The position numbers and the translations under genes are program-made. DNA of 64,000 nucleotides, from contig NC_091280.1 of NCBI RefSeq assembly GCF_042100115.1, positions 1,922,001-1,986,000 on the forward strand. The letters run 5' to 3'. Position 1 is the stretch's first letter; every line of letters starts with the position of its first letter. The DNA is from Alternaria dauci. Lineage: Eukaryota > Ascomycota > Dothideomycetes > Pleosporales > Pleosporaceae. The notes below the pieces were generated by a model. The model did no database searches. It had not been told where the DNA came from and worked only from the letters and a program-made list of their open reading frames with translations. Of this stretch, positions 48,020 to 48,610 are shown piece after piece.

Positions 48020-48025
48020 AAAAAA
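48020..48025 (-). terminator. T6 Pol III terminator of the tRNA-Lys gene
   Basis: Six T on the minus strand, eight bases after the tRNA 3' end (48033). The position is typical of Pol III termination and suggests the locus is still a Pol III unit. Confidence 0.7.
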
Positions 48026-48048
48026 GCAATTTCGCCCGACCAGGGACT

Positions 48049-48100
48049 CTGCGACTCGTTAGTGGGGTGATTCGAAATTAGGAATTTCGAGGTTGCGTAC
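48049..48100 (-). other. Spliceosomal-type intron 2 in the tRNA T-loop (52 nt)
   Basis: Starts GTACGC, has a CACTAAC branch site nine bases before its end, and ends GTCGCAG. It splits the T-loop after TTCG and so breaks the B box. It carries a TTCGAATC core at 48076-48069 that resembles a B box itself. Confidence 0.8.
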
Positions 48101-48144
48101 CGAACCCTGAGCCTTGAGATTAAAAGTCTCACGCGCTAACCAAT

Positions 48145-48203
48145 CTGAAGAAGCCCGTTAGTCAACTGTTTGAGTTGTGGTAGTAGGAACGGTGAGTTCT
48201 TAC
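48145..48203 (-). other. Spliceosomal-type intron 1 in the tRNA D-loop (59 nt)
   Basis: Starts GTAAGA, has a GACTAAC branch site 12 bases before its end, and ends CTTCTTCAG. These are the same signals as mRNA introns in neighbouring genes. It splits the D-loop after A14 and thereby the A box of the Pol III promoter. Confidence 0.8.
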
Positions 48204-48217
48204 TGTGCCAGCCGGGC

Positions 48218-48610
48218 TGTGATGTGGTTGATGAGCATTTCACAAATTGTACAATATAGAACGCAGGCTAAGCGATCCGACAGACTTGACGCTTAAGTGG
48301 AAGCTTTTACTCATCCGGAGGGCGACACAAAGAATCATGGTGGGGGCAGTGGAGTCACGCTTCTTAGTGGGTCCACATGTAAGATCATGCGTCATCGATT
48401 TCTTTGAGCGAAGGATTATCCCAAATCAATGAACAAAGACAGTAGCAGCGTCGTACTGTAAAGCTATAGCAGGGAGCAACGCATTGATCAGGCAAGAAGT
48501 ACGCATGCTGTAAAAAATACGCGTCGTTTCGTTTCCAAAATTCATTTACACAACAGAGCGCTCATGTGCTATATGTCCCACATTCAAATCGTTGTCTCAA
48601 GCAACCTCAC
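48218..48610. other. Region between hexokinase stop and tRNA-Lys
   Basis: 393 bp that should hold the hexokinase 3' UTR and the upstream region of the tRNA gene on the same strand. I see no TATA-like element just upstream of the tRNA. Confidence 0.5.

Follow-up and report, generated by a model that had tools for sequence, protein, structure and literature searches.

Spliceosomal-type introns in the nuclear tRNA-Lys(UUU) gene and in other tRNA genes of Alternaria dauci

A nuclear tRNA-Lys(UUU) gene was located on the minus strand of the analysed window (the whole stretch of DNA, 64 kb in length). It is interrupted by two inserts, and the reading put forward in a preliminary description, namely two spliceosomal-type introns in a functional tRNA gene, remains the best one; 15 further tRNA genes of the genome are built alike. 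With a probability of roughly 0.87, judged from sequence comparisons, this gene is transcribed by RNA polymerase III (Pol III) and its product is matured when two U2-type spliceosomal introns are excised, the gene being one of a genome-wide set. The preliminary description was right but understated the case: of 75 nuclear tRNA genes that were read and clearly recognised, a sample partly chosen by pattern and short of the full set, 16 and not just one contain mRNA-type introns, and the other 59 (40 + 13 + 6) are contiguous apart from introns of the 37/38 type.

Structure of the split tRNA-Lys(UUU) gene

The gene occupies positions 48217-48033 and is composed, in the order of the minus strand, of 14 nt, an insert of 59 nt, 44 nt, an insert of 52 nt and 16 nt; the coordinates and lengths first given for the two inserts were exact. 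Exon 1 (48204..48217) comprises positions 1-14 of the tRNA, with the 5' strands of the acceptor stem and the D-stem. It is followed, after position 14 in the D-loop, by an mRNA-type intron of 59 nt (48145..48203) of the form GTAAGA...CAG. The CTAAC branch-site motif of this intron (48157..48161) places the branch A at 48158, 13 nt before the 3' end. Exon 2 (48101..48144) extends from the D-loop to the T-loop and includes the anticodon TTT within GACTTTTAATC. The second mRNA-type intron (48049..48100, 52 nt, GTACGC...CAG) lies in the T-loop between positions 57 and 58; its CTAAC motif is found at 48058..48062, with the branch A at 48059, 10 nt before the 3' end. The order GT...CTAAC...CAG was thus confirmed for both inserts. 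Exon 3 (48033..48048) supplies the remainder of the T-loop, the 3' strands of the T-stem and acceptor stem, and the discriminator G. The split gene sits behind a hexokinase-like gene, which is encoded on the same strand; a scan of genome contigs with this hexokinase gave no relative.

The joined sequence of 74 nt was identified by ARAGORN as tRNA-Lys(ttt). Nothing was found by this program in the uncut gene or when either insert was kept, and the raw 64-kb window gave no tRNA with ARAGORN and no match with Rfam at gathering scores. In the joined sequence, pairing is 7/7 in the acceptor stem with one G-U pair, 5/5 in the anticodon stem and 5/5 in the T-stem, in agreement with the preliminary description. 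The D-stem pairs at 3/4 positions, with one A.C mismatch that this description had passed over. Group I and group II introns were considered for the inserts and rejected, because lengths of 48-60 nt leave no ribozyme core of hundreds of nt and the window contains no Rfam match.

Split tRNA genes in the genome

The genome searched comprises 34.9 Mb in 10 contigs. A total of 16 nuclear tRNA genes with 23 mRNA-type inserts was recovered, specific for Lys, Gln, Glu, Gly, Pro, Ile, Arg and Ser. The inserts are located at 14/15 and 57/58 in the one Lys(UUU) gene, after position 11 in the D-arm (11/12) and at 57/58 in three Gln(CUG) genes and two Gln(UUG) genes, and at 57/58 in two Glu(CUC) genes, one Gly(GCC) gene and one Lys(CUU) gene. 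Pro(UGG) has one insert within the anticodon (34/35) and another at 55/56, while the insert of Pro(CGG) again falls within the anticodon (34/35). Single inserts are present at 52/53 in Ile(AAU) and at 53/54 in Arg(CCU), Ser(CGA) and Arg(UCG). All of these sites differ from the canonical 37/38 position, at which a second kind of intron was found in 13 of the 16 split genes. In Pro(UGG) (L097, 1362-1557) and Pro(CGG) (L126), the mRNA-type intron at 34/35 is followed three bases on by a separate 37/38 intron.

The pattern for a split T-loop, GGTTCGGT...CTRAY...AGANNCC, gave 10 matches in the genome versus 2 in the reversed control, and all 10 fall in tRNA genes. A looser form of the pattern gave 29 matches (control 48). 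A T-stem of 5/5 was obtained in exactly the 10 matches that lie in tRNA genes, the other 19 reaching at most 4/5, and chance assembly was ruled out by this control. The notion that tRNA-like pieces came together by chance in the Lys(UUU) pattern would fit the invisibility of the raw sequence to ARAGORN and Rfam, but its likelihood is practically nil: joining gives a complete tRNA, the same split occurs ten times against two in the control and coincides with the perfect T-stems, and the other 15 split genes contradict it.

Further genes were sought with other patterns. A B-box plus CTAAC pattern gave 22 matches against 80 in the reversed control; 7 of the 22 were introns already known, 1 revealed a new gene, Pro(UGG), and 14 were unrelated sequences. 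A further splice-motif pattern gave 9 matches versus 4 in the control, 4 of them being split tRNA genes; its ninth match, C4:2852262, was left unread. The candidates C3:290008, C10:752056, C7:2256801 and C3:1273687 were read and rejected, none being a tRNA gene. An Rfam tRNA search of the genome was performed in which 63 of 931 candidates were scored. A tRNA pattern requiring a downstream T run resulted in 124 rows, several per gene, with 26 in the reversed control; from the matches listed, 35 selected regions were read, 9 of which held no tRNA. Besides the 75 clear genes, two tRNA loci are uncertain, L115 and L127. The former is tRNA-like, with acceptor, anticodon and T stems complete by eye; its anticodon loop contains a GC-rich stretch of about 94 nt that shows no GT...AG.

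After removal of the inserts and of the 37/38 introns, the expected tRNA was named by ARAGORN in 16/16 split genes, in the case of Ser(CGA) after the 37/38 boundary had been moved by one base. This result is to be taken as a consistency check, because insert boundaries and 37/38 introns were placed by eye. The same genes uncut gave one wrong call and no correct one; Arg(CCU), one of the 16, was listed uncut by the Rfam tRNA search. ARAGORN isotype names were also wrong for some of the tRNA loci read, e.g. L032, L116 and L119.

Splice motifs of the inserts

All 23 inserts have a length of 48-60 nt and GT...AG ends, movable boundaries having been set so as to agree with this rule; one insert ends in AAG. 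CTAAY was found in 22/23 inserts, where it puts the branch A 9-13 nt before the end, and is missing from the remaining one; part of the set behind this count had been found by patterns demanding CTRAY. Among ten inserts that were found without a splice motif at their own site, GT...AG is present in 10/10 and CTAAY in 9/10. These ten are the five Gln D-arm inserts, which are homologous and not independent, both Pro 34/35 inserts, and those of Ile, Arg(CCU) and Ser. The insert of Arg(UCG) was kept outside this count, as the gene was listed by the T-run pattern but read after a splice-motif pattern.

The earlier statement that the inserts are exactly like mRNA introns of the neighbouring genes held in part. 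It was compared with 44 coding-intron candidates of the window (reversed control 17). Length, branch site and 3' end agree, with overlapping lengths (48-60 nt in the tRNA inserts, 43-76 nt in the coding candidates). With respect to the 5' splice site the statement was too strong, for GTAAG opens 15/23 tRNA inserts versus 3/44 coding-intron candidates, the commonest start of the latter being GTATGT (7/44).

Spliceosome or tRNA endonuclease

Nuclear tRNA introns are described as being removed by a protein endonuclease and a ligase. The inserts could be ectopic tRNA introns that are cut by the tRNA endonuclease via BHB motifs, in the manner of C. merolae. Such a reading draws on the similarity of the insertion sites to those of tRNA introns in C. 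merolae (PMC9602550), on the intron lengths given for its tRNA genes (PMC3978253), and on the 13/16 split genes that also hold a 37/38-type intron. Pairing in the BHB central helix was therefore compared with shuffled sequences. The 23 inserts formed 43/92 pairs (shuffle mean 40.5, z 0.5), which is the level of the shuffles, whereas the 13 37/38 introns of the split genes, used as positive control, formed 32/52 pairs (mean 21.3, z 3.4). Of the 4 central pairs, 2 and 1 are formed in the respective introns of Lys(UUU). All four central pairs occur in 2/23 inserts and 1/13 37/38 introns and both flanking helices in none, so that the strict motif does not discriminate. GT...AG ends and CTAAY at a fixed distance are, moreover, unneeded by the endonuclease, and its action on the inserts is regarded as improbable.

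Since BHB pairing of the inserts is at shuffle level and they overlap the coding-intron candidates in length, branch site and 3' end, though not in the usual 5' splice site, the spliceosome is the best explanation. Removal by this mechanism is strongly implied rather than demonstrated. According to this scheme, Pol III would transcribe the split Lys(UUU) gene, and the spliceosome would take the D-loop and T-loop introns out of the precursor. In many of the split genes, introns of the D-arm, the anticodon or the T-arm would be removed by the spliceosome and the separate 37/38 intron by the tRNA endonuclease. Pol III transcription, lariat splicing, and charging and use of the tRNA are all inferred from the DNA sequence. 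Pol III RNAs are not known to have the cap that aids splicing of mRNA, which counts against the spliceosomal reading. Further points against the overall explanation are the D-stem mismatch, the weak B-box-like sequence in intron 2, TATA-like motifs near shuffle level upstream of split genes, the deviating 5' splice sites, the one insert lacking CTAAY and the one ending in AAG, and the intron-free full-length U6 matches.

Paralogues, empty sites and the apparent need for removal

An intact set of other Lys(UUU) genes, together with a lack of any transcription at this locus, had been named in the preliminary description as evidence that would speak against it. Patterns built on the Lys(UUU) anticodon arm gave no second nuclear gene; one whose arm differs might go undetected by them. 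The sequence GACTTTTAATC had 6 matches in the genome (reversed control 22), with tRNAs only at this locus and in a tRNA cluster of mitochondrial look. A looser pattern gave 3 matches (control 1), namely this locus, the gene of mitochondrial look and one non-tRNA; the last, C8:2069009, was rejected. No paralogue was obtained by BLAST either, in a strict search that missed the Lys(CUU) genes too.

In the region G000:C3:3344209-3399162, near the end of a 3.4 Mb contig, 17/58 Rfam tRNA matches are crowded. Within it, locus L005 is AT-rich, has a mitochondrial look and holds a Lys UUU gene. The region looks like mitochondrial DNA that was joined to, or inserted in, a nuclear contig.

AAA codons were present in 4/4 ORFs counted (16 in all), and Gln codons are used in the counted ORFs. 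A Gln gene with an uninterrupted D-arm was not found: when at most 2 mismatches were allowed, TAGTGTARYGGTTATCAC had a single weak match, left unread, and six matches in the reversed control. Each of the five Gln genes recovered carries two inserts; a contiguous Gln gene that has diverged could have escaped this pattern. Because neither a second nuclear Lys(UUU) gene nor a Gln gene with an uninterrupted D-arm was found, removal of the inserts seems to be required.

Contiguous paralogues are present for Lys(CUU), Gly(GCC), Glu(CUC), Ile(AAU) and Arg(CCU). They are what would be expected if the split genes were dead pseudogenes with chance or junk inserts while contiguous genes did the work. This is very improbable: contiguous genes for Lys(UUU) and Gln were not found though their codons are used, and the exons of the split genes are intact. 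In the three Gln(CUG) copies, the exons show 100% identity and the introns 76-92%. When Gln(CUG) is compared with Gln(UUG), identity in the intron interiors falls to 40-56%, which is near the random value of 48%, while the splice ends are kept and CTAAY is present in 9/10 Gln inserts. Such a combination of random interiors and kept splice ends is the pattern that selection on splicing would leave.

Sites with and without an insert were compared directly. Once its T-loop insert is taken out, Gly(GCC) L012 agrees with the uninterrupted L148 at 88/88 nt, the 37/38 intron included, and Glu(CUC) L015 without its insert is identical to the uninterrupted L146 over 99/99 nt. Four uninterrupted paralogues of Ile(AAU) show 93-95% identity. 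By the two identical pairs the insert boundaries are fixed, save for a one-base shift that is settled by the GT-AG rule, and a recent gain or loss of the insert is indicated.

Putative Pol III control elements

In the Lys(UUU) gene, an A-box-like sequence, TGGCACAGTAAG, is located at 48199..48210 on the minus strand, the A box apparently being carried on across the exon-intron junction by the 5' splice site. The D-arm inserts as a group behave in this way, with the 5' splice site continuing the A box (TGGCACA/GTAAG and TAGT/GTACG, the slash marking the junction).

The T-loop inserts at 57/58, present in ten genes, interrupt the Pol III B box. A B-box-like sequence was found within the intron in 7/10 of these cases, each with p ≤ 0.005 against shuffles. 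Intron 2 of Lys(UUU) contains a weak one, ATTTCGAATCA (48068..48078, minus strand), with p = 0.083 against shuffles. In Gln(UUG)-2, a B-box-like sequence is present in the D-arm intron (p = 0.015). In Gln(UUG)-1 (L011), the T-loop intron of which has none, the B-box-like sequence AGTTCGATTCG lies between the tRNA end and the terminator-like run at 34 nt, and looks like a relocated promoter element. The T-loop intron of Pro(UGG) contains a B-box-like sequence with p = 0.02, the gene itself having been found through a B-box pattern. Where the insert sits at 52/53 or 53/54, the junction still shows a B-box-like sequence.

A run of T5 or more is located within 34 nt behind 16/16 split genes, a raw count that includes five genes found by a pattern demanding such a run. 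Behind Lys(UUU) it is a terminator-like T6 run at 48020..48025, minus strand, 7 nt past the end of the tRNA. The upstream motif ATCAA, at 48228..48232 on the minus strand in Lys(UUU), is common to other split and contiguous tRNA genes of the genome and was counted in 11/16 split genes (shuffle mean 1.05) and 19/40 contiguous genes (shuffle mean 2.5). TATA-like sequences upstream are clearly enriched in contiguous genes (30/40, shuffle mean 12.4); in split genes they are not clearly above the shuffles (6/16, mean 3.9, maximum 8). Transcription of the split genes by Pol III would proceed with displaced control boxes.

Possible origin and spread of the introns

T-loop introns of Glu, Gly and Lys(CUU) are alike, with z values of up to 6.2; the likeness is marginal without the shared motifs (p 0.04-0.64). 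They have GTTCGAYTCAT..CTAACAA in common, which was perhaps copied between isotypes by gene conversion. For a mobile intron family among the tRNA introns, the sequence similarity gives marginal support, and an origin of the introns by reverse splicing is possible. The 37/38 introns of Lys(CUU) (L014 and its paralogues L044, L045, L046 and L124) all hold CTAA and have no AG end at the exon boundary; those of L014, L045 and L046 start with GT. GT and CTAA in these introns are possibly a relic or a coincidence.

Comparison with known systems

mRNA-type introns occur in the U6 snRNA genes of some fungi other than fission yeast. The U6 gene of fission yeast has an mRNA-type intron as well, which is thought to have arisen by reverse splicing (PMC10484740). 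Like the tRNA inserts, it is of spliceosomal type and interrupts a short structured RNA made by Pol III; it is the nearest Pol III case. U6, however, is itself part of the spliceosome, whereas here many tRNA genes of several isotypes are interrupted at several sites. Neither of the two U6 matches of full length in this genome, one of them (L060) read in detail, has an intron. A 5'-truncated U6 copy (L062, C1:5437718) lies about 230 nt from one full-length match.

In C. merolae, tRNA-Ile(UAU) is interrupted at 12/13, 37/38 and 53/54 (PMC9602550), and the lengths of tRNA introns are given as 11-69 bp (PMC3978253). Introns in the D-, anticodon- and T-arms of C. merolae and crenarchaeal tRNAs are tied to BHB motifs (PMC3978253, PMC9602550). 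Such tRNA genes resemble the present ones in having several introns per gene in the D-, anticodon- and T-arms. They differ in being tied to BHB and endonuclease, whereas the inserts described here have no BHB signal and the form GT...CTAAY...AG. According to a title cited in PMC11782384, nuclear 18S rDNA of deuteromycete fungi harbours an mRNA-type intron; this, too, is a gene that is not transcribed by Pol II, but one for rRNA, not tRNA.

Canonical 37/38 nuclear tRNA introns differ from the inserts in position, in following no GT-AG rule and in BHB-like pairing above the shuffles. Introner-like elements of Dothideomycetes represent recent spliceosomal intron gain in filamentous fungi and form near-identical families in protein genes. 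In contrast, tRNA introns of different isotypes show marginal similarity when the motifs they share are left aside. The main text of a review on tRNA introns does not contain the string 'spliceosom' (PMC4090602). No earlier report of spliceosomal introns in nuclear tRNA genes was found in the open-licence literature by title and start of abstract, and one may exist elsewhere.

Implications

ARAGORN named 0/16 split genes correctly when uncut. Detection of tRNAs thus has a blind spot for split genes, and genomes that seem to be without isoacceptors deserve to be scanned again. The machine for splicing of mRNA may be needed to make some of the tRNAs of this fungus. A broader view is held with slightly better than even confidence: translation would depend on the spliceosome, as U2-type splicing, in some cases across the anticodon, would act alongside the tRNA endonuclease in maturing every tRNA-Gln, the sole tRNA-Lys(UUU) and other tRNAs. 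The introns would have spread between tRNA genes, and the destroyed B box would have been rebuilt in the intron, in another intron or downstream. The case would show gain or loss of introns in short structured Pol III RNAs beside intron-free paralogues with identical exons. If true, the two splicing worlds would be joined, and translation would be made dependent on the spliceosome.
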